Positions 4,765 to 19,331 of a stretch of DNA of 20,917 bases are shown one piece after another. Both the position numbers and the translations under genes were made by a program. The first letter of the stretch is position 1. Each line of letters starts with the position of its first letter. A model generated the notes under the pieces. That model searched no databases, had not been told where the DNA came from, and worked only from the letters and a program-made list of their open reading frames with translations. This DNA comes from a virus, in IMG/VR virus record IMGVR_UViG_3300042861_001045, positions 1-20,917 of that record. One strand, written 5' to 3'.

Positions 4765-4947
4765 GGGTCCCATGGGTCAGGATTATCTTAGCCGGGGACA
4801 AAGGTTAAAAGACTATATAGTCCCGACCTACATTTACGGTTAAGTGTACTCCGTAGTCCCGGCCTGCCCCCAAGCCGGTTGTCTCTCGCGACTGGATGTA
4901 TCCCCTTTTGCAGCTGCTCGGCATTGGCTGTCGCTGGGTCCAGATAC

Positions 4948-4976
4948 TTGTGCAGAACCTTTCGATGCTGTATAAT
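4948..4976 (+). promoter_or_regulatory. Rightward early promoter
   Basis: TTGTGC (4948-4953), a 17-base spacer and TATAAT (4971-4976). The -10 box is perfect and the -35 matches at three of six positions (TTG). The predicted leader carries the GC-rich palindrome CCCTCCGGAGGG before the AGGAG site of the first gene. Confidence 0.65.
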
Positions 4977-5042
4977 AATCCCATGGTCGGCGATTCGGCC
5001 AGCCCCTCCGGAGGGAATCCGGACCCAATAGGAGACACGACA

Positions 5043-5429
5043 ATGACAACACGCACCAAAAAAGAAGCAGTAGAAGCAGTCCGTGCAGCAATCGAAGCCG
5101 TACAGACAGAAGCACACGACACAGCGACCCCACTCGACACGCCAAAAGGTGTTCTGGCTCTCGCAAGAAGCGTCGAGTACAGAGCAACGCTCCAGAGGAC
5201 GACGACCGCCACAGGTAACAAGAGCCTTGACAATGGCGACAGCGTGGCACTCCTCCTACGCGGTGCAGATCTCGAAACAGTCTACCAGATCGGGGCGAGA
5301 GAATTGGGAGTCACAGTGACCGAGCTTAAGACAAAGTACGCCCATCTCAATCCGGGCCAGCAGCGAATGAACGTTGGCAACAGGGTCCGCGGTGCGATCA
5401 AAAAGCACGAAGCCCGCCAAGCAGCCTAA
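5043..5429 (+). CDS. Conserved phage protein, KYGHLNPG-type paralog 1
   Basis: Function unknown. A 128-residue basic protein starting at ATG 5043, eight bases after AGGAG. The longer frame from 4896 has no ribosome site and would begin upstream of the promoter. Residues 1-25 are an Ala/Glu/Lys helix. Residues about 45-121 form a module shared with two other proteins here: KSLDNGD, then LRGADLETVY, LKTKYAHLNPGQQRM (95-109) and GNRVRGAIKK. The copies at 7825 and 11001 share the order LxGxxLxxVY / LKxKYxHLNPGxQRM / GxRxRG. The conserved basic RGxxKK end suggests nucleic-acid binding, as inference only. This kind of small protein is widespread in phages as hypothetical. Confidence 0.85.
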   Translation: MTTRTKKEAVEAVRAAIEAVQTEAHDTATPLDTPKGVLALARSVEYRATLQRTTTATGNKSLDNGDSVALLLRGADLETVYQIGARELGVTVTELKTKYAHLNPGQQRMNVGNRVRGAIKKHEARQAA

Positions 5430-5434
5430 TCAAC

Positions 5435-5452
5435 CACGGCCAAGGACGGCCA
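5435..5452 (+). repeat. Leader repeat, degenerate copy (ACGGCC-AAGG-ACGGCCA)
   Basis: CACGGCCAAGGACGGCCA is a close variant of the core found at 5569-5589 and 6012-6032 (CACGGCCATGGACGGCCAT). Two copies precede ribosome sites of small genes by one or two dozen bases, so the element may act in the mRNA leader. Confidence 0.5.
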
Positions 5453-5471
5453 ACAACCACAGGAGACTGAA

Positions 5472-5564
5472 ATGAAAGCGATTCTTGAATACTTGCAATT
5501 CGTGCTGGTTTGCATCGCAATCAGCTTGTTATTGATGATGGACTTGACCGGCACCAGCTGGTAA
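5472..5564 (+). CDS. 30-residue hydrophobic peptide, possible single-pass membrane protein
   Basis: The ATG at 5472 follows AGGAGA with ordinary spacing. The peptide is MKAILEYLQFVLVCIAISLL followed by LMMDLTGTSW. Residues about 8-22 are strongly hydrophobic, enough for one membrane helix. Such micropeptides are common between early phage genes, often with unknown roles at the inner membrane. It is too short for family assignment. The gene's 3' end lies inside a 42-base direct repeat, so the same last residues (GTSW and stop) recur at 5991-6007. Confidence 0.55.
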   Translation: MKAILEYLQFVLVCIAISLLLMMDLTGTSW

Positions 5565-5589
5565 GCAACACGGCCATGGACGGCCATCA
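5548..5589 (+). repeat. 42-base direct repeat, copy A
   Basis: A perfect 42-base match to 5991-6032, beginning CCGGCACCAGCTGG and ending ACGGCCATGGACGGCCATCA. It spans the end of the 30-residue peptide gene and the leader of the NinX-like gene. Confidence 0.85.
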
Positions 5590-5990: not shown

Positions 5991-6032
5991 CCGGCACCAG
6001 CTGGTAAGCAACACGGCCATGGACGGCCATCA
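5991..6032 (+). repeat. 42-base direct repeat, copy B
   Basis: A second perfect copy of 5548-5589. Here it is not followed by a ribosome site or a credible gene, so it looks like the remains of a duplication just after the NinX-like gene. Confidence 0.85.
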
Positions 6033-6590
6033 ACCATCAATAATTGACCAGAAATCAACGATTGTTTGGCGGTACCAGCAATGGTTTCTAACCAAATCAA
6101 AGATTGATCGGTGCGCGTTCGCACGTGACAATGAACAACAATTGGCCGGAGATCAACCATTACCCAGAAATACTTTCAAGACCCCATCAAAAAATACTTT
6201 CGGAGGGGGTACTTGCGACCAAGATCAAAAAAACCGGTGGAGAAAACGGTGGAAGAAAATCACCCCGGTGGACGCCGGTGGAACCGGTGGACGCTCCCGA
6301 GTCCCCTTTTTTCCCGTTTTTTTTCCCCCCCTTGTTTTGTTCAATTCTACTATAAATTTTTTTCCACCGGTCCACCGCCCGCCGGACGCGACATCAAGCA
6401 CTTACCGGTGGAAGTGTTCCACGGCTCCACCATGTTCCACGCCATTCGAGTCGATACCATTCGGGCGCAAGATTGGCCTTCGGAGGGGGCCTTGGAGTCA
6501 AGATTGTTCTTCCACCGGTCAAGACATTCTTCCACCGGTCCGGGGGATCTTGGAGTCAAGGCATTCCCCACCGGTCCGAGAGCAGTTCGC
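6008..6590. other. Non-coding repeat region, candidate replication origin
   Basis: This stretch shows no credible gene. It holds about ten copies of an ACCGGT-centred motif: CCGGTGGA-type copies at about 6233, 6246 (variant), 6265, 6275, 6283 and 6404, and TCCACCGGT-type copies at 6363, 6511, 6531 and about 6568. Between the first cluster and the inverted copies is a pyrimidine- and AT-rich stretch (about 6301-6362) containing CTATAAATTTTTTT. Other repeats are TTCGGAGGGGG at 6199 and 6479, and CTTGGAGTCAAG at 6491 and 6549. A hairpin GTGCG-cgtt-CGCAC lies at 6111-6124. Iterons beside an AT-rich segment are the usual layout of a phage origin. Binding sites for a regulator are the alternative. 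Confidence 0.5.
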
Positions 6591-6591
6591 A

Positions 6592-6627
6592 TTGATACTA
6601 TGCAGCACACTGCCGACGTGGTATAAT
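6592..6627 (+). promoter_or_regulatory. Extended -10 promoter with TTGATA element
   Basis: TTGATA (6592-6597), 24 bases, then TGGTATAAT with TATAAT at 6622-6627. The spacing is too long for a normal -35, so the TGn extended -10 probably carries the promoter. Compared with its sister at 7565 the left palindrome arm is broken here, though the right arm AGCGTGTGGG (6629-6638) is kept. GTGGGAGATCCCAC follows as a possible 5' mRNA hairpin. Confidence 0.65.
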
Positions 6628-6671
6628 AAGCGTGTGGGAGATCCCACGAACAACAATAAAGGAGAAATCAA

Positions 6672-6896
6672 ATGACCGATTCAATCAAAATCCGCGACTT
6701 GATCACCGATTTGGGCGTTGTTGCTCTGGATCGCGCAGAAATGGTAAACGGCGGTAATAGCAACTACCCGTACGCGTTTGGTTTCTTGGTTTCGTTGATG
6801 CAATCAGTAGCTTGCGACATGGAGTTGTCAAACGAGCAACTCGGCGTCATACAAGAGTGTATTGATTACTGGAACAAAGTTAACGACTGTTGTTGA
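6672..6896 (+). CDS. Hypothetical phage protein, 74 residues
   Basis: Unknown function. The ATG at 6672 lies seven bases after AAAGGAG, in a unit driven by the 6622 promoter. The sequence is amphipathic and probably all-helical: MTDSIKIRDLITDLGVVALD, then YAFGFLVSLMQSVACDMEL (about 34-52) and NEQLGVIQECIDYW. The C-terminus is NDCC. The TGA stop lies inside the TTGATA element of the next promoter. No catalytic motif is seen. Confidence 0.75.
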   Translation: MTDSIKIRDLITDLGVVALDRAEMVNGGNSNYPYAFGFLVSLMQSVACDMELSNEQLGVIQECIDYWNKVNDCC

Positions 6897-6939
6897 TACT
6901 ATGCAGCACCCACGCACTGTGGTACAATAAGTGCGTGGG
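6893..6939 (+). promoter_or_regulatory. Extended -10 promoter inside a perfect inverted repeat
   Basis: TTGATA (6893-6898), 24 bases, then TGTGGTACAAT with -10 at 6923-6928. Perfect 10-base arms CCCACGCACT (6909-6918) and AGTGCGTGGG (6930-6939) flank an 11-base loop that contains the -10 box at loop positions 5-10. It drives the 6965 gene. Confidence 0.7.
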
Positions 6940-6964: not shown

Positions 6965-7243
6965 ATGAAAACGCTCTATTTCCAATACGGCGGTAAAGTC
7001 AGCGACTGTTGGGATTGGTGGTCTGCTGAGTTGAGTATAGTCACGGATAAATCAGAGGCGCAGCTATTAATTGACCTATTCAGACTACTCGACGCCTATG
7101 AACACGACACTATAACCAGCGAAGAGCAAAACGAGCTAGACACCATCGAAGCGAAGATTGCATGCGACGGTTTCTACTTTGCCGACCGTCTCGAGGACTT
7201 GCCCCTTCTTAAATACGGCTTCTTGCTGTGCAGCTGCGATTAA
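6965..7243 (+). CDS. Hypothetical protein, tandem paralog A
   Basis: 92 residues of unknown function. The start at ATG 6965 is chosen over an upstream in-frame ATG at 6890, because it follows ACGAGGT and exactly matches the start of its tandem copy at 7285. It begins MKTLYFQYGGKVSDCWDWW and ends YGFLLCSCD, with a central acidic segment (TSEEQNELDTIEAKIACDGF, about 51-70). The copy at 7285 shares MKTLYFQY, the SxEQxELDxIEAxIAxxGFYFAD block, LEDLP-type wording and the C-terminal SCD. No known domain is recognised. Confidence 0.72.
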   Translation: MKTLYFQYGGKVSDCWDWWSAELSIVTDKSEAQLLIDLFRLLDAYEHDTITSEEQNELDTIEAKIACDGFYFADRLEDLPLLKYGFLLCSCD

Positions 7244-7284
7244 GTTGATACTATGCAGCACCTACCGCCAAACGAGGTAAAACG

Positions 7285-7563
7285 ATGAAAACGCTCTATT
7301 TCCAATACGACAACAAGATCACCGATTGCAGGTTTGTGTGGGCCGCTGAGTTGGGCGCAGTTGCAGACCGGTTGATAGTGCGACCATTGCTCGACCTACT
7401 CGACTCCTATGAATACGGCACCCTGACCAGCAAAGAGCAAGACGAGCTAGACGCCATCGAAGCGAGGATTGCACGTTGTGGTTTCTACTTTGCCGATTGC
7501 ATCGAGGACTTGCCCGGTCCCGCCAAATACGACGTTGTTGATGAAGGCGACAGCTGCGATTAA
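7285..7563 (+). CDS. Hypothetical protein, tandem paralog B
   Basis: 92 residues, the second copy of the 6965 gene, diverged but collinear: MKTLYFQYDNKITDCRFVW, SKEQDELDAIEARIARCGFY (about 51-70), FADCIEDLPGPAKYDVV, ending GDSCD. The function is unknown. The same ACGAGGTAAAACG ribosome region precedes the ATG. Its own promoter is deleted, leaving TTGATACTATGCAGCACC only, so it should be read through from paralog A. Both copies keep open frames, which suggests selection on both. Confidence 0.72.
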   Translation: MKTLYFQYDNKITDCRFVWAAELGAVADRLIVRPLLDLLDSYEYGTLTSKEQDELDAIEARIARCGFYFADCIEDLPGPAKYDVVDEGDSCD

Positions 7564-7564
7564 G

Positions 7565-7611
7565 TTGATACTATGCAGCACCCACACGCTATGGTATAAT
7601 AAGCGTGTGGG
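7565..7611 (+). promoter_or_regulatory. Extended -10 promoter inside a perfect inverted repeat
   Basis: TTGATA (7565-7570), 24 bases, then TATAAT at 7595-7600 within ATGGTATAAT. Perfect 10-base arms CCCACACGCT (7581-7590) and AGCGTGTGGG (7602-7611) enclose an 11-base loop in the same geometry as at 6893-6939 but with different arm sequence. Confidence 0.72.
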
Positions 7612-7824: not shown

Positions 7825-8382
7825 ATGACTAGACAGACTAGAACACCAAGGCAGACCAAGAAATCGACCGAGGACGCAAAGGAGGTATTCAAGATGAACG
7901 AAGAGCGCATGAACGAGTTGTTGGATAGCATACCCGAAGATGAGAGTGTTGATATTGACGACTTGCCAGAAGGCGAGTACACAATGGAGGACCTCAAGTC
8001 CCTCGGTGTTGTTGATAGTGATGACGACCAGATCGAGAATGACAACATCAGAGATCCGGAGGACGACACCGAGATCGTTGGTTCGATGCCGCGATTGCGT
8101 GAGCCAGAATACCGCGCCAAGTTGGTGAAAGTGACCACTGCAGCAGGAGGCAAGAGCCTGTGCAACGGCGACCCAATTGCGTTACAACTGCAAGGCAAGA
8201 GCCTCGACGATGTTTACGAGGTAGGCTCACAATTCCTTGAGGTCACCGTTGACGCTCTGAAAGAGAAATACGGCCATCTGAATCCGGGCCAGCAACGCAT
8301 GAACATCGGTAACCGAATGAGGGGGTTGATCAAGAAACGTGACCGTGAAGCAGCCGAGTTGATAAAAGACACTGTTGAGTGA
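7825..8382 (+). CDS. Conserved phage protein, KYGHLNPG-type paralog 2, acidic N-terminus
   Basis: 185 residues; the ATG at 7825 follows GAGGA (7814-7818). Residues 1-20 are basic (TRQTRTPRQTKK). Residues about 25-88 are strongly acidic (IPEDESVDIDDLPEGEYTME, DSDDDQIEND) and probably disordered. The C-terminal module (94-172) matches paralog 1 closely: EYRAKL, KSLCNGDPIAL, LDDVYEVG, LKEKYGHLNPGQQRM and GNRMRGLIKK. The function is unknown. The added acidic arm could mimic DNA or bind a partner, which is inference. It is the largest of the three copies here. Confidence 0.85.
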   Translation: MTRQTRTPRQTKKSTEDAKEVFKMNEERMNELLDSIPEDESVDIDDLPEGEYTMEDLKSLGVVDSDDDQIENDNIRDPEDDTEIVGSMPRLREPEYRAKLVKVTTAAGGKSLCNGDPIALQLQGKSLDDVYEVGSQFLEVTVDALKEKYGHLNPGQQRMNIGNRMRGLIKKRDREAAELIKDTVE

Positions 8383-8730: not shown

Positions 8731-8767
8731 TATAGACGACGGCACCGGACTGTGGTATACTGGTGCC
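8727..8767 (+). promoter_or_regulatory. Extended -10 promoter with flanking inverted repeat
   Basis: TTGATA (8727-8732), 23 bases, then TGTGGTATACT with -10 at 8756-8761. Six-base arms GGCACC (8741-8746) and GGTGCC (8762-8767) flank the -10 region. It drives the chain of small genes starting at 8787. Confidence 0.65.
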
Positions 8768-9953: not shown

Positions 9954-10436
9954 GTGGGTGAAGATTTAGCAGCATATGAACAAATCACCGAGTTGTTGAA
10001 TGTTGCAATGACAAGAGAGGTGACGCCAGCAGAAATGTTTGCCAAGATCCTCCGATGTATTGAGCAGATCACCAAAGAAATGGCGGAGTTGAAAGCAAGA
10101 TCGTACCATTTAGACGCACGATTGGGTGAAGACGCTAAAACTAAGGCACTGGCGGCATTGCGCAGTCAAGAACGCGAAAAAGATGAAAGCCCGCAACGAG
10201 GGCCAATACCCGGACATACCTATAGCCAATCACAAAAAGCCAAGATATACAGGGCCAAATACGGCAGAGAAGCACCGGAAGATCGCATTAAAGCACAAGA
10301 AAAAGAATGTGGGAGATGCGGCGTTATGAAACCGTTTCATGACTACCACGTTAATTCAAGAAACGCCGATGGCAAAGATACGCAATGTAAAGTGTGTAAA
10401 ATAGCTTACAAAAAACGAGTCGCCGCACAGCGTTGA
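9954..10436 (+). CDS. Helical protein with C-terminal zinc knuckle (GTG start)
   Basis: A GTG start at 9954 is chosen because AGGAGGA lies just upstream; the earlier in-frame ATG at 9897 is buried in the previous gene without a ribosome site. This gives 160 residues. Residues 1-55 are helical (EQITELLNVAM, KILRCIEQITKEMAELKARS), 56-115 are charged and basic, and 119-148 carry CGRC...CKVC (Cys119, 122, 145, 148) with MKPFHDYHVN between. This CxxC-MKP-CKVC module also occurs at 13699 and resembles the N-terminus of the HNH-TerS protein. It is often found on phage HNH nucleases, but no HNH motif is present here. DNA binding is plausible. Confidence 0.7.
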   Translation: MGEDLAAYEQITELLNVAMTREVTPAEMFAKILRCIEQITKEMAELKARSYHLDARLGEDAKTKALAALRSQEREKDESPQRGPIPGHTYSQSQKAKIYRAKYGREAPEDRIKAQEKECGRCGVMKPFHDYHVNSRNADGKDTQCKVCKIAYKKRVAAQR

Positions 10437-10479
10437 TACTATGCACAGTACCCACGCTGTGGTATACTAACGATGTGGG
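10433..10479 (+). promoter_or_regulatory. Extended -10 promoter with partial inverted repeat
   Basis: TTGATA (10433-10438) containing the TGA stop of the previous gene, 24 bases, then TGTGGTATACT with -10 at 10463-10468. CCCAC (10451-10455) and GTGGG (10475-10479) pair, while the inner arm bases do not. The palindrome GGGACGTCCC follows. Confidence 0.65.
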
Positions 10480-10510
10480 GACGTCCCACTAACGCAATGA
10501 GGATTTTGAA

Positions 10511-10786: not shown

Positions 10787-10810
10787 ACCAGTGTGGCGGG
10801 TAACACTGGT
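10787..10810. other. Hairpin in the spacer after the 10511 gene
   Basis: Perfect 8-base arms ACCAGTGT and ACACTGGT enclose an 8-base loop, 22 bases after the stop of the 10511 gene. There is no T-run, so it is either a factor-dependent end, an mRNA 3' stabiliser or an operator. The rest of the spacer up to 10923 shows nothing convincing. Confidence 0.45.
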
Positions 10811-10923: not shown

Positions 10924-10952
10924 TTGACTAAGACGATCAGTCATGATATAAT
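10924..10952 (+). promoter_or_regulatory. Strong sigma70-type promoter for the helicase unit
   Basis: TTGACT (10924-10929), a 17-base spacer and TATAAT (10947-10952): one of the best matches to consensus in the window. CTGGG-ggcgat-CCCAG follows near the expected transcript start as a possible 5' hairpin. It drives the 11001 gene and the overlapping helicase. Confidence 0.78.
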
Positions 10953-11000
10953 ACTCATCTGGGGGCGATCCCAGTTCTACAACCAACCAATGAGGTTAAC

Positions 11001-11333
11001 ATGTCCGACGAAATCAAAAAAGTACAAATCAAACCCGACCTGACCAAGTACGTTAAAGGCAAAAATGGCACTTTTCGTTCACAAGACGAAGTAGCCGAAA
11101 AGCTCGATGGCCTACACCTCGAAGAGGTTTACGGTCTGGTGTCCGGTGAATTGCAGGTTCCCGTCAGTGAGTTGAAAGACAAGTACGGTCACCTCAACCC
11201 CGGCTTGCAGCGTATGAGCCTTGGCGGACGTCTGCGTGGCGTGGCCCGCAAAGCCGAAACTGCAGCCAAGAAAGCTGCGCTAAAGGCTGAAAAAGAAGCC
11301 GCTAAAGCAGCTGCACAGCAAGAAGCCGCATAA
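11001..11333 (+). CDS. Conserved phage protein, KYGHLNPG-type paralog 3
   Basis: 110 residues; the ATG at 11001 follows ATGAGGTTAAC. Residues 34-82 hold the shared module (EKLDGLHLEEVY, LKDKYGHLNPGLQRM, GGRLRGVARK). The N-terminal part of the module seen in the other copies (KSLxNGD) is replaced by KNGTFRSQDE. The C-terminus (83-110) is an Ala/Lys/Glu helix, resembling basic tails that contact DNA. It is the first gene after a strong promoter, and its stop overlaps the helicase start (TAATG), suggesting equal expression and perhaps a shared role in DNA metabolism. Confidence 0.85.
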   Translation: MSDEIKKVQIKPDLTKYVKGKNGTFRSQDEVAEKLDGLHLEEVYGLVSGELQVPVSELKDKYGHLNPGLQRMSLGGRLRGVARKAETAAKKAALKAEKEAAKAAAQQEAA

Positions 11334-13180: not shown

Positions 13181-13209
13181 TTGACGCCGCCGAACGAGTG
13201 TGGTATACT
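13181..13209 (+). promoter_or_regulatory. Sigma70-type promoter
   Basis: TTGACG (13181-13186), a 17-base spacer and TATACT (13204-13209), also with TGTGG just before the -10. It drives the 13256 gene and probably the genes to 14709. Confidence 0.75.
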
Positions 13210-13255
13210 ACATGTGTCGGGGATATCCGGCGTAATCAATAACAAGGTGAACAAA

Positions 13256-14741: not shown

Positions 14742-14773
14742 AGCCGGGAGCGAATTACTCCCGGCTCTTTTTG
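14742..14773 (+). terminator. Strong intrinsic terminator
   Basis: A perfect 9-base stem AGCCGGGAG (14742-14750) and CTCCCGGCT (14758-14766) with a 7-base loop, followed by CTTTTT. It ends the 13990 transcript. The ribosome site GAGG of the next gene begins directly after the T-run, so read-through may set polymerase cassette expression. Confidence 0.85.
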
Positions 14774-14782
14774 AGGTGTTTA

Positions 14783-15070
14783 ATGTCTAATTTAACGTGG
14801 CGGACTAGTCAGAAAGGTAATCCCTACATCAAAGACGGGAATTTTCTGATATCAGTATTCGAGAGACAACGCGATCCGGGGTTTTGTTGGTGCATTAGCA
14901 GCGACGAGGATGCAATTAAGATATTCAGCAAGGGCGCTTTTGGTAAACGCACCGAGGCGATGACCGACGCCATACGTAATTATGCGCATCTGGTCCAAGA
15001 GGCCGACCCGATTGAGGATTCACCACGTCAGGACGACGACCCCCATTATGATGATGACGTGCCATTTTAA
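14783..15070 (+). CDS. Small protein with an SSB-like C-terminal tip
   Basis: 95 residues; the ATG at 14783 follows GAGGTGTTTA. The body (NLTWRTSQKGNPYIKDGNFL, ISVFERQRDPGFCWCISSDE, then a helix AMTDAIRNYAHLVQEA) looks like a small alpha/beta domain. The tail DSPRQDDDPHYDDDVPF is acidic and ends DDDVPF, nearly the DDDIPF tip by which bacterial SSB recruits RecQ, PriA, exonuclease I and polymerase partners. It therefore may be a single-strand DNA binding or SSB-mimicking accessory protein, although no OB-fold is evident to me. The stop overlaps the polymerase start by one base, implying they are made together. Confidence 0.72.
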   Translation: MSNLTWRTSQKGNPYIKDGNFLISVFERQRDPGFCWCISSDEDAIKIFSKGAFGKRTEAMTDAIRNYAHLVQEADPIEDSPRQDDDPHYDDDVPF

Positions 15071-16833
15071 TGTACCCCATACTGCGCGACGAGATTGTAG
15101 CGATCGATCTTGAAACCACCGGTTTGAGGTGGTGGGGATTGGATCAGTATTTCGGTATAGCTATAGCAACATCTAAAGGGGAATGGTACTACGATATTAG
15201 ACGGGATCCCTCAATAATCCCGTGGCTTCGCGACAATATTCCGAAGTGTCGTTTGATGTGTAATCACAACCTCAAATTCGACGCTCACTTTATGTCGGAA
15301 TTGCTGACGGCACCGAAAATCCATTGTACGATGATAGCTGAGGCTCTTATTGACGAGCACCGGCAATCGTATTCACTCGATAACGTTTCTAAGTTCCGGA
15401 GGCTTGGAGCTAAGGTCGGGATCGAGTGGGCCAAGAATGATATGGCTAATGCCCCGTATGATATGATGGCCAAGTACGCATCTGTGGACGCTAGGCTTGC
15501 CAGAGACTTGTGCATCAAGCAATTGTCGGATATCCGCGATCAGGAACTATCACAGGTATTCGATATGGAAATGGACCTGTTCAGAGTATTGGTTGATATC
15601 GAGGGCCGTGGAGTACCGGTAGACGTTAGAGCAGCCGAGGAATCAATACCAAAGCTGACGTCGATGATCGACTCGACACAATTGGAGATTAATACACTGG
15701 CGGGGTCACCGCTGAATGTTAATTCGGGGCCACAGGTGAAAGCTCTGTTTGCACCGGAGAAGATCAGCGAGACACGATGGCGCTTGGTGGATGGTACCAT
15801 AGCGCCCAGTACCAAAGGAGGTAGCGTAAGCTTGACTCAAGACGTGCTCCGCACAATGACCCATCCAGTGGCGTCTTTGATTATGCGGTTGCGCAAATTA
15901 ATCAAAGCCCGTGACACGTTTGTGATGGGCCATGTGTTAGGACATGAACACAATGGAATCGTACATACTAGTTTCAATCAAACGCGGACTGAATTTGACT
16001 CCGGAACAGCGACGGGCCGTCTATCGAGCACTAGCCCAGCACTTCAACAGATTAGCAAGCGAGATCCCGAATTTGCCGGAATCATCAGATCCTTGTTTAT
16101 CCCATTTGGAGGTCAGTCATGGCTCTGCTGTGACCACAGTCAGATCGATTTTAGAGTTGCAGCACACTTACAAAACGATCCACGGGTGATCAAAAGCTAC
16201 TGGGATGACCCGAGTCTGGACTACCACGATTTCACGGCCAAGATGATGAACATCCCGAGGAATCCGGAGTACGCCGGTGCACCGAATGCCAAGCAGATTA
16301 ACCTGGGGCTACAATTTGGTGCTGGACCCGGCAAGATTGCTAAAACGATGGGAATGCCATACACCACGCAAGTGAAGGACGGCATGGAGCGCTATATAGG
16401 TGGCCCCGATATCATGAAGCTGTTTGAGCGGTATCACTCTACACTGCCGATGACAAAGCAGTTTTCATCCAGAGCACAGACAATTGCATCAACACGAGGG
16501 TACGTGAAGACGCTAATGGGTCGTCGGTTGCGGTACCCGAAAATGATGGGCGCACACAAGGCAGCGGGTCATCTTTACCAAGCCAATGCTGCCGAGTGCC
16601 ACAAGACTGCGTTAATACGGATACACAACTTGCTCAAGAATACCAAGAGCAGTTTGATGGTATCAGTGCATGACGAAATAGGTGTTAGCTTAGACCCAAC
16701 GGAGGTGAATTTAATAGCTGAAATCAAAAGAATATACTGTGACTTTCAAAGCGACGAGGCACCATTCAAGTTACGCGTTCCCATTGAATGTAGTGCTGAT
16801 GTTGGACCCAACTGGTATATAGCGAGTAAGTAA
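15070..16833 (+). CDS. dpoZ: Family A DNA polymerase with 3'-5' exonuclease (DpoZ-type)
   Basis: 587 residues. Exonuclease: AIDLETTGL (Asp13, Glu15), CNHNLKFD (64-71, Asp71) and YASVDARLARD (Tyr136, Asp140). Polymerase: TATGRLSSTSPALQQI (313-328), motif A CCDHSQIDFR (Asp355, with Asp360 in place of the usual steric-gate Glu), O-helix PNAKQINLGLQFGAG (405-419, Lys408) and motif C VSVHDEIGV (His534, Asp535, Glu536). Against Klenow, Arg754 aligns with Ala404, Phe762 with Leu412 and Tyr766 with Phe416. It lacks a 5' nuclease domain. Immediately followed by purZ, it matches the DpoZ type described in aminoadenine siphoviruses such as phiVC8. The preference for Z is inferred, not shown. Confidence 0.9.
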   Translation: MYPILRDEIVAIDLETTGLRWWGLDQYFGIAIATSKGEWYYDIRRDPSIIPWLRDNIPKCRLMCNHNLKFDAHFMSELLTAPKIHCTMIAEALIDEHRQSYSLDNVSKFRRLGAKVGIEWAKNDMANAPYDMMAKYASVDARLARDLCIKQLSDIRDQELSQVFDMEMDLFRVLVDIEGRGVPVDVRAAEESIPKLTSMIDSTQLEINTLAGSPLNVNSGPQVKALFAPEKISETRWRLVDGTIAPSTKGGSVSLTQDVLRTMTHPVASLIMRLRKLIKARDTFVMGHVLGHEHNGIVHTSFNQTRTEFDSGTATGRLSSTSPALQQISKRDPEFAGIIRSLFIPFGGQSWLCCDHSQIDFRVAAHLQNDPRVIKSYWDDPSLDYHDFTAKMMNIPRNPEYAGAPNAKQINLGLQFGAGPGKIAKTMGMPYTTQVKDGMERYIGGPDIMKLFERYHSTLPMTKQFSSRAQTIASTRGYVKTLMGRRLRYPKMMGAHKAAGHLYQANAAECHKTALIRIHNLLKNTKSSLMVSVHDEIGVSLDPTEVNLIAEIKRIYCDFQSDEAPFKLRVPIECSADVGPNWYIASK

Positions 16834-16834
16834 A

Positions 16835-17860
16835 ATGAATACGATGATAGTCGATCTCCAATTCGGCAGCACTGGAAAAGGACTCATAGCCGGTTACATG
16901 GCGATGAAAAATCAACCAGACACAGTAGTGACAGCAAATGGCCCCAATTCGGGCCATATTTTTATTGATGGGAACGGCAACAAGGTGAAGATGCGCCAGC
17001 TTCCTGTAGGAGTGGTATCACCGAATCTTAAACGCATTATGCTTGGTCCGGGCGCTATTATCGACCCGGTAGTATTACGGGAAGAAATAGACACGTACAT
17101 CGAGTACATCGGTCAAGCTGATATAATCATCCATAAGAATGCTGCTGTAGTTTTGGATTATGACAGGGAGGCCGAGAGAGACCTCGGAAGGATCGGGAGC
17201 ACCCAGACGGGTACCGGCAGCGCCATGCTCCGGAAGATGGCCCGGAAGCCCTCGGAGGGGCCTTCGACGGCATCCGTCGCGGGGGACTTCGACTGGGGAT
17301 CCGATATAATGGTAGTCAATACCCGCGAGTGGTTGATGCATTTCGGTATGGCGGATAGGTGGCAGATAGAAGGATGCCAGGGATATTCTTTGAGTATCCA
17401 CCACGGATTTTGGCCATATACTACATCAAGAGACTGTACGCCAGCACAATTAATATCAGACTGTGGGTTACCGGTAAGTGTTTTGATGAACACGAATATA
17501 ATAGGATGCGCGAGGACCTACCCGATACGTGTAAACAATAAGACTGGATCGAGCGGTCCGTGTTACGATGATCAAAAAGAGATCAGTTGGGCCGACATAG
17601 GCGTAGAGCCTGAGTTGACCACAACTACCCACTTGCCGCGTCGGATTTTTACGTTTTCACACGACCAAATCTATGAGGCGTTGAGCATAGTTTGTCCCGA
17701 TGTGATGTTCTTGAATTTCGCGAATTACATGTCTGATTCCGACTTTAATAACTTAGTGGACGCAATTCGATACCGTACTGGCTTCGAAGGTGAAATAATC
17801 AGTGGGCATGGTCCTACTATCAATGATGTGAAACATTACGGAGGTTACTATGGCATATGA
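16835..17860 (+). CDS. purZ: PurZ, 2-aminodeoxyadenylosuccinate synthetase
   Basis: 341 residues, homologous to adenylosuccinate synthetase (PurA) but shorter than the roughly 430 of bacterial PurA. The P-loop reads QFGSTGKG (9-16): the catalytic Asp of the PurA signature GDEGKGK is Ser12, the hallmark of PurZ, which acts on dGMP rather than IMP. PNSGHIF keeps catalytic His41. Other landmarks are GPGAIIDP, GSTQTGTGSA, EGCQGYSLSIHHGFWPYTTS and THLPRRIFTFS. PurZ condenses dGMP with aspartate, giving the precursor of 2-aminoadenine deoxynucleotide that host PurB then cleaves. It starts one base after the polymerase stop with no clear ribosome site, so is coupled, and overlaps the MazZ gene by 11 bases. 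Confidence 0.93.
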   Translation: MNTMIVDLQFGSTGKGLIAGYMAMKNQPDTVVTANGPNSGHIFIDGNGNKVKMRQLPVGVVSPNLKRIMLGPGAIIDPVVLREEIDTYIEYIGQADIIIHKNAAVVLDYDREAERDLGRIGSTQTGTGSAMLRKMARKPSEGPSTASVAGDFDWGSDIMVVNTREWLMHFGMADRWQIEGCQGYSLSIHHGFWPYTTSRDCTPAQLISDCGLPVSVLMNTNIIGCARTYPIRVNNKTGSSGPCYDDQKEISWADIGVEPELTTTTHLPRRIFTFSHDQIYEALSIVCPDVMFLNFANYMSDSDFNNLVDAIRYRTGFEGEIISGHGPTINDVKHYGGYYGI

Positions 17861-18185
17861 AAAAATGTCGATTGACGAACTGGCCGACGAGGTATACCGT
17901 TGGGCCGACAAGCAATTTCCGGATCGCAACCCGGATCAAGCATGGCACAAGCTGAATGAAGAACTGGCAGAGTTATTCAAGGAGCCAAAAAATCCCAAAG
18001 AATACGCTGACGTTTTTATCGTTTTGCTTGACTTAGCCGCTCTTAATGGCATTAGCTTGGAAACCGAGATTCTGACCAAGCTCGAAATTAACAAAATGAG
18101 CAATTGGGTTAGGGATGGTGATGTAATGAGAAGGGTAAAATCTCCAGTTACCGAAATCAAAAAATACCACTACCCAGAAGATTGA
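17850..18185 (+). CDS. mazZ: MazG-like nucleotide pyrophosphohydrolase (MazZ type)
   Basis: 111 residues, all-alpha MazG fold. The metal site ExxE...ExxD is visible: EELAE (Glu38, Glu41) and EYAD (Glu51, Asp54), followed by VFIVLLDLAALNGI. MazZ enzymes of Z-DNA phages cut dGTP, and in some cases dATP, to monophosphates, supplying dGMP to PurZ. The ATG at 17850 follows GGAGG inside the end of purZ, in a different frame. Identity as MazZ rather than a housekeeping MazG rests on the position between purZ and datZ. The TGA stop lies in the upstream element of the next promoter. Confidence 0.88.
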   Translation: MAYEKMSIDELADEVYRWADKQFPDRNPDQAWHKLNEELAELFKEPKNPKEYADVFIVLLDLAALNGISLETEILTKLEINKMSNWVRDGDVMRRVKSPVTEIKKYHYPED

Positions 18186-18227
18186 GTATAGACGGGGACC
18201 ACTCGATGTGGTATACTAGTGGTCCCC
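18182..18227 (+). promoter_or_regulatory. Extended -10 promoter inside a perfect inverted repeat
   Basis: TTGAGT (18182-18187), 24 bases, then TGTGGTATACT with -10 at 18212-18217. Perfect 10-base arms GGGGACCACT (18194-18203) and AGTGGTCCCC (18218-18227) flank it. It lies inside the Z cassette and gives datZ and downstream genes a second source of transcription. Confidence 0.7.
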
Positions 18228-18418: not shown

Positions 18419-18807
18419 TGAATAAGACACAATTCTTACGTTTCATAGGAGACGTGGCAGAAAAGTTAAGGGGGTTATCAAACTCCAAAGGCGTCGAATA
18501 CGCCGGTAGTGATAACCAGTTTGCGAATTTCGAGAGGCTTGCCGATAGGCTTGGCCTAGATCGTGAACGCGTTTTGATGGTGTATCTCAGCAAGCACATG
18601 GATGCCATTGATAGTTGGGTTAAAACCCGCAAGGAATTCAGTGAACCGATTGAGGGTAGGATTGAAGATGCTATCCTTTACCTTACGTTATTGCTTGCCA
18701 TGACGAAAGAATCAAAACAAGGACCCCAAGGGGCCAAATTACCAGAAATAGCAAAAGGTTTAAATGGACCTGCAGGTCCTACTAACCTTGGGAGATTCGG
18801 AGAATGA
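18418..18807 (+). CDS. Small all-alpha protein, possibly DUF1599/MazG-like
   Basis: 129 residues. A helical domain spans residues 1-95: EYAGSDNQFANFERLADRLG (27-46), VLMVYLSKHMDAIDSWV (52-68) and EPIEGRIEDAILYLTLL (76-92). The spacing of Glu76, Glu79, Glu83 and Asp84 recalls the acidic E-x-D-DxxxY segment of DUF1599 (nucleotide modification associated) and all-alpha pyrophosphohydrolases. A Gly/Pro tail follows (GPQGAKLPEIAKGLNGPAGP). It lies between mazZ and datZ, overlapping both neighbours' reading frames by one to four bases. The family label is a guess from pattern; a role in nucleotide pools is inferred from position. Confidence 0.68.
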   Translation: MNKTQFLRFIGDVAEKLRGLSNSKGVEYAGSDNQFANFERLADRLGLDRERVLMVYLSKHMDAIDSWVKTRKEFSEPIEGRIEDAILYLTLLLAMTKESKQGPQGAKLPEIAKGLNGPAGPTNLGRFGE

Positions 18808-19331
18808 AAATAAACGACTTAATGAGGACGTCATACGTCAAACGATGGCACATTGTCGACGTATCGCGGGAACAATCAGTGGCCGAACATTCAGCACTGG
18901 TAGCGTATATCGCAATCGACCTTATACGTAACACACCGGCAGTAGATGATTCGGTGTCATTGGAGGCTATGTGGTGGGCGTTATACCATGATGCGGGTGA
19001 GGTAATACTGGGGGATCCCCCCGGTAATCTTAAGCTGACACCGGGGTTTGCAGACGTCTACAAGAAAATGGCCGAACACTACACCCCAAGTATGTGTAAT
19101 ATGGACGTTTCTGAGGTTGCAGTTCAAGCTGTGAAGATAGCTGATCTGGTTGAATCAATACGGTACATGAGACGATATGGTGTAGGCAGCGAAGTCATAA
19201 TCATCGAGTCAAATTTATATGAGCGTCTTGAGGCATATGCTAACAAAACCCCATATGTTGAGACATGGGGCGGCGTGTATGAAGATGTAATGTACGGAAG
19301 ACCGACAATTGCGAATGTAGAAATCCCGTAA
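18804..19331 (+). CDS. datZ: HD-domain dATP triphosphohydrolase (DatZ type)
   Basis: 175 residues, HD superfamily close to YfbR-type nucleotidases. Metal ligands: His29 (QSVAEHS), His62-Asp63 (ALYHDAGEVI) and Asp114 (KIADLVESI). Arg14-Trp15 (VKRWHIV) is also typical of this group. DatZ of cyanophage S-2L strips the triphosphate from dATP, clearing the competing nucleotide so that 2-aminoadenine is used instead; the length here equals that enzyme's as I recall it. The LGDPPGNLK segment after the HD pair matches the YfbR group too, so a general deoxynucleotidase is the alternative, but the purZ/mazZ context favours DatZ. It starts four bases inside the previous gene. Confidence 0.9.
   Translation: MKINDLMRTSYVKRWHIVDVSREQSVAEHSALVAYIAIDLIRNTPAVDDSVSLEAMWWALYHDAGEVILGDPPGNLKLTPGFADVYKKMAEHYTPSMCNMDVSEVAVQAVKIADLVESIRYMRRYGVGSEVIIIESNLYERLEAYANKTPYVETWGGVYEDVMYGRPTIANVEIP

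Follow-up and report, generated by a model that had tools for sequence, protein, structure and literature searches.

Why would a phage place the −10 boxes of its promoters inside inverted repeats whose arms change from site to site and still pair? A reading made from the sequence alone had drawn attention to four such sites, arguing that the arms are conserved in their pairing and not in their sequence and that this fits a DNA hairpin or cruciform promoter, or an RNA hairpin in read-through transcripts, better than a plain repressor operator. The sites lie on a 20.9 kb phage fragment with a GC content of 48% (20,917 nucleotides, the whole stretch analysed, hereafter the window) that carries the gene set for the modified base 2-aminoadenine (Z) and encodes terminase and portal on the opposite strand. 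Its PurZ is 40–45% identical to those of known Z phages, including S-2L, and a nucleotide search of the whole window against phage records returned no match. Because the collections contain no close relatives of the window phage, we looked for covariation in other phages that share this anatomy. The window also encodes three paralogous proteins of unknown function (PHROG 8941; 4896–5429, 7825–8382 and 11001–11333), all sharing a motif like KxKYxHLNPGxQRM.

All four inverted repeats are present where the sequence-only reading had placed them, each with a −10-like hexamer in its loop (Table 1). The repeats are perfect, with arms of 10, 10, 6 and 10 bp around the −10 boxes at 6923, 7595, 8756 and 18212, respectively. 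Across the window there are four perfect inverted repeats with arms of at least 10 and loops of 6–22, three of which sit on these −10 boxes; five Markov simulations of the window produced none. We further shuffled the flanks of nine plus-strand promoters while holding the −35 and extended −10 fixed, which gave an expectation of 0.11 sites with arms of 6 bp or more, and four such sites were reached in 0 of 20,000 shuffles. The four repeats around −10 boxes are thus far beyond chance. Taken singly, their folding z-scores are only moderate, ranging from −1.1 to −3.0 (−3.0 at site 7581; −2.2 at site 6909, where a 70-nt stretch folds at −21.0 kcal/mol as RNA), and Rfam gave no family match above its gathering score in the window. 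Arms cannot be exchanged freely among sites: when they were swapped between 6909 and 7581, 8 of the 10 pairs survived, and only 3–4 survived when 18194 was swapped with either. Only two compensated pairs are seen between the two clear copies (6909 and 7581), and the four hairpins contain no non-canonical pair, G.U included.

Table 1. Promoter, hairpin and Z-gene features of the window
Feature	Positions	Strand	Details
Hairpin CCCACGCACT-gtggtacaata-AGTGCGTGGG	6909–6939	+	−10 TACAAT 6923–6928 in loop
Hairpin CCCACACGCT-atggtataata-AGCGTGTGGG	7581–7611	+	−10 TATAAT 7595–7600 in loop
Hairpin GGCACC-ggactgtggtatact-GGTGCC	8741–8767	+	−10 TATACT 8756–8761; −35 TAGACG 8733–8738, spacer 17
Hairpin GGGGACCACT-cgatgtggtatact-AGTGGTCCCC	18194–18227	+	−10 TATACT 18212–18217; −35 TAGACG 18189–18194, spacer 17
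Upstream element TTGATACTATGCAGCAC, promoter module 1	6592–6608	+	−10 TATAAT 6622–6627
Downstream hairpin GTGGG AGAT CCCAC	6634–6647	+	Begins at predicted +1; from sequence and RNA fold
Upstream element, promoter module 2	6893–6909	+	Exact copy of TTGATACTATGCAGCAC
Fourth exact copy of TTGATACTATGCAGCAC	7245–7261	+	No −10, no hairpin
Upstream element, promoter module 3	7565–7581	+	Exact copy of TTGATACTATGCAGCAC
Promoter module TTGATACTATGCA...TGTGGTATACT	10433–10489	+	−10 10463–10468; downstream hairpin GTGGGGACGTCCCAC 10475–10489
Promoter TTGACT-17-TATAAT (10924–10952)	10924–10974	+	Downstream hairpin CTGGGGGCGATCCCAG 10959–10974
Promoter TTGACG-17-TATACT (13181–13209)	13181–13231	+	Downstream hairpin GTCGGGGATATCCGGC 13216–13231, one U.G pair
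Leading promoter TTGTGC-17-TATAAT	4948–4976	+	Divergent junction
Family A DNA polymerase	15070–16833		Z gene set
PurZ	16835–17860		Z gene set
dATP/dGTP pyrophosphohydrolase	17850–18185		Z gene set
HD phosphohydrolase	18804–19331		Z gene set

The plus strand of the window carries about nine promoter-like sites, mostly of the type −35/TGTGGTATAMT. Besides the four predicted promoters with a hairpin around the −10, four others (6622, 10463, 10947 and 13204) have one starting from about +1. At the leading promoter (−10 at 4971) there is no perfect inverted repeat around the −10, although the leader can fold. A 17-nt upstream element, TTGATACTATGCAGCAC, occurs in four exact copies in the window against 0.05 expected. 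Outside it, a single exact 17-mer match in viral contigs (L055) was rejected as a coincidence inside coding sequence, and 11 spaced-pattern matches in bacterial genomes, in which the −10 is not at the right spacing, also look like coincidences. Two other repeat families lie nearby: identical 42-nt repeats (CCGGCACCAGCTGGTAAGCAACACGGCCATGGACGGCCATCA; 5548–5589 and 5991–6032) with a small hairpin within and a diverged third copy at 5414–5455, and a TTCTTCCACCGGTCC-like 15-mer present four times at 6359–6577, in a stretch without a clear gene.

Comparison of the copies indicates that the hairpin is separable from the promoter. In the module at 6592–6647, the right arm (AAGCGTGTGGG) is identical to that of site 7595, its complementary left arm is absent upstream, and it pairs instead with a partner downstream. 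One arm varying without the other was the outcome that the sequence-only reading had named as refuting it, and this occurs at the predicted promoter 6622, where the right arm still finds a partner. The lack of an upstream partner there shows that the promoter module does not include a hairpin around the −10, and that the arms change yet stay complementary at the four sites but not in every copy. The copy at 7245 retains the upstream element but, compared with the 6893 module, is missing 32 nt that comprise both arms and the −10. The 17-mer at 7245 may serve some purpose other than the promoter, or be a recent copy; it precedes a diverged duplicate gene (6965–7243 and 7285–7563, about 70% nucleotide identity). 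Furthermore, the element TTGATACTATGCA and a −10 at the same spacing recur in PurZ-bearing viral contigs (G002, G003 and G009) and also in G004. None of these promoters has a perfect hairpin around the −10, and some have a downstream palindrome, which indicates that the element and −10 constitute the promoter and that the hairpin is an addition.

Among known Z phages, ZP6 (L109:2783) has a repeat of 12 bp with the −10 at its centre, VLCpiS6a and PMBT28 have similar ones of 7 bp, and there is another at the promoter upstream of the ssb gene adjoining purZ in Acinetobacter phage Barton. This last site could be compared at orthologous positions across seven Acinetobacter phages, representing six distinct rows. 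The arms around the −10 read CCCGATCAT/ATGATCGGG, CCTGCC/GGCAGG, CCTGCCT/AGGCAGG and CCTGTCTAT/ATAGACAGG; all 54 base-pair cells are paired, three pairs are altered on both sides, and the covariation score was equalled by 1 of 500 shuffles. Hairpins in Z phages may lie around the −35, in the spacer, around the −10 or downstream. In Stenotrophomonas phage BUCT555 (L113: 3915, 6508, 16592 and 31113) and in L115 (14553), the −35 sits within the repeat or the repeat occupies the spacer, and L014 carries near-identical promoter copies at 5386 and 5705 with the −35 TTGACA inside a 10–11 bp inverted repeat (AAAATTGTTTGTTGACAAAACAATTTT). At several Barton promoters (L111: 23761, 24776, 27942 and 30459), a CCCCCAATCTATG-like spacer is repeated, possibly as a real operator or activator site; elsewhere the arms vary.

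The same promoter-hairpin anatomy is present in T1, which we had taken as a non-Z control; neither T1 nor the T1-like phages are known as Z phages. Of 66 non-redundant T1-like promoter sites, 56 have the element GCACGAATTGCTAA with the −10 21 nt further on, and the hairpin arms differ among T1 promoters despite this shared element. Helices of 7 bp or more enclose the −10 at 17 of the 66 promoters, compared with 1.2 after arm swapping (maximum 5.2; 200 swaps), and at about half of the promoters no helix of 5 bp encloses the −10. Among 33 strong hairpins, the −10 falls in the loop in 14 and downstream of the hairpin in 5; most of the rest overlap it with the right arm, in three cases with the end of that arm. 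Several have a GAAA tetraloop with a C-G or G-C closing pair. Orthologues of one T1 promoter from eight phages are 90.6% paired, with nine cells changed on both sides and a covariation score equalled in none of 500 shuffles, and one relative pairs in a shifted register. Compensatory changes at orthologous sites, as expected of a structural RNA, therefore occur in both Acinetobacter Z phages and T1 relatives. Together with the T1-like arm swaps, they bear out, in phages other than that of the window, the proposal that pairing is kept and arm sequence is not.

Which molecule folds can be approached through the pairs that are not Watson–Crick, each of which carried the same penalty in our helix scoring. 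At T1-like promoters, the sense strand contains 18 G.U and 3 A.C pairs, against 2.3 and 4.8 after shuffling; at 98 Z-phage promoters the counts are 16 and 1, against 7.7 and 9.5. Sense G.U is thus tolerated and A.C is not in both groups, the pattern of a structural RNA. In a cruciform, in which both DNA strands extrude and the loop would show the −10 to sigma, G.U and A.C pairs are equally harmful. Retained pairing and a −10 in the loop at all four window sites are in keeping with such a promoter, but the hairpin shifts register relative to the −10 and −35, and promoters with the same element and −10 have none around it, both in the PurZ contigs and at 6622, whereas a hairpin promoter of the N4 or Frpo type would need a fixed register and constant presence. 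Arms of 6–8 bp with loops of up to 15 are also poor cruciform formers, and we regard the DNA hairpin or cruciform half of the original proposal as highly improbable. The repressor operator that the sequence-only reading had ranked lower fares no better. Palindromes centred near the −10 occupy classic repressor positions, yet no half-site sequence is common to the sites, half-sites within one genome differ widely while staying complementary, and arm swaps destroy the symmetry. Because what is kept is the pairing and not the sequence of the arms, binding sites for dimeric regulators are disfavoured, and we give them very little probability. Single-stranded DNA tolerates G.T better than any other mismatch, and the G.U/A.C asymmetry therefore demonstrates folding of the sense strand and not strictly of RNA. 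Even so, it seems very unlikely to us that single-stranded sense DNA folds during replication or entry and, by exposing the −10 in a loop, provides a single-strand promoter that switches genes on.

The sense G.U preference and the variable register favour sense RNA as the best candidate for the folding molecule over a cruciform or hairpin promoter, making the read-through RNA half of the proposal the better one. The preference and the mobile register come from other phages, and for the window the RNA reading is carried over from them. It had also been suggested that Z:T pairs alter the stability of these hairpins. The recurrence of this anatomy in T1-like phages led us to drop that idea, and a hairpin made of RNA has A where the DNA has Z. 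The arrangement of hairpin over promoter is not specific to Z genomes, and the modified base is probably irrelevant to it. In non-Z controls related by terminase, few promoters were called at the threshold used, too few for comparing Z with non-Z rates.

The location of the hairpins suggests what such an RNA might do. In the window, left arms begin 8–17 nt past a co-directional stop codon, and in the annotated cases examined elsewhere 6–28 nt past it (ZP6, 12; Barton, 16; VLCpiS6a, 6; PMBT28, 7; T1, 9–28), as in REP-type elements. Intergenic gaps at these promoters are about 57–85 nt, and a post-stop location follows from such compact gaps whatever the role. The window also has a plain post-stop hairpin without a promoter at 10787–10810, and further gaps show the same. 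We think it fairly probable that the predicted promoters carry a superimposed sense-RNA hairpin in read-through transcripts, likely acting as a barrier where the upstream cistron ends. The promoters themselves would be of the ordinary sigma-70 type with an extended −10, serving co-directional phage genes, and the hairpin would be a second, separate signal placed over them. Polymerase arriving from the upstream gene would copy the promoter into RNA, whereupon the spacer and initial transcribed region could pair in a stem of about 6–10 bp, often with the copied −10 in its loop. Transcripts starting at the promoter would miss the left arm, which is upstream of +1, and would form no hairpin around the −10; only read-through RNA would fold where the hairpin encloses it. 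At the sibling promoters 6622, 10463, 10947 and 13204 the hairpin sits just downstream of +1. Whatever its sequence, the stem would most likely either block 3′ exonucleases or mark where neighbouring cistrons are processed apart, and the shortness of the gap would explain why it overlies the next promoter. By analogy, we infer that the window hairpins work like those of the other phages and that they likely protect or separate messages.

The main rival shares much of this anatomy. RNase III or another double-strand nuclease might cut the read-through hairpin and so divide the transcript into individual mRNAs, as happens at the intergenic R sites of T7, and a sense hairpin between co-directional genes beside a promoter, with covariation and sense G.U, is what such a site would look like. 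Its stems of 6–10 bp are, however, short for canonical RNase III substrates, the loops vary and no internal-loop pattern was seen, which leaves cleavage a possible but rather unlikely function. A nascent read-through hairpin would also take shape immediately behind the polymerase as it passes the promoter and might cause pausing, attenuation or partial termination that limits upstream polymerases crossing it. This we consider improbable: a terminator scan of the window listed none of the four sites and no T-run follows the hairpins, the best terminator-like site of the window being at 14742–14766. The explanation we prefer remains a barrier or boundary hairpin in read-through RNA.

Under this explanation, the same stretch of DNA would encode two things independently, a promoter read as DNA and a hairpin that forms in read-through RNA and covaries, a dual code that recurs with unrelated sequences in Z phages and T1-like phages. 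If confirmed, it would provide a rule for locating phage promoters and message boundaries by sequence alone, with T1 on E. coli as an easy test system. We found no description of this arrangement, including hairpins at T1 promoters, in the open-access literature searched, a body that leaves most subscription papers outside.

Among known systems, REP-type elements are intergenic mRNA hairpins that stabilize the upstream cistron, and the hairpins described here resemble them as sense-RNA hairpins with sequence-independent stems just past a stop codon between co-directional genes. They differ in overlying the promoter of the following gene, from −35 to +5, and they are short, with a sequence unique to each site and no repeated family. 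In T7, RNase III sites adjoin promoters, so that promoter and intergenic RNA hairpin are similarly packed together; the present stems are shorter, sometimes with the −10 inside them, and cleavage is hypothetical. The promoters of the N4 virion RNA polymerase likewise have an inverted repeat, and there the hairpin is the recognition element; the promoters here have a host-type −35/−10, the register varies and the hairpin is missing from homologous promoters. A further parallel to the window is found in the promoters of T1-like phages (Drexlerviridae), which also combine a conserved upstream element, a −10 at fixed distance and a variable, covarying hairpin at the −10, although GCACGAATTGCTAA is unrelated to the upstream element of the window and an arm often overlaps the −10 rather than the hairpin enclosing it.
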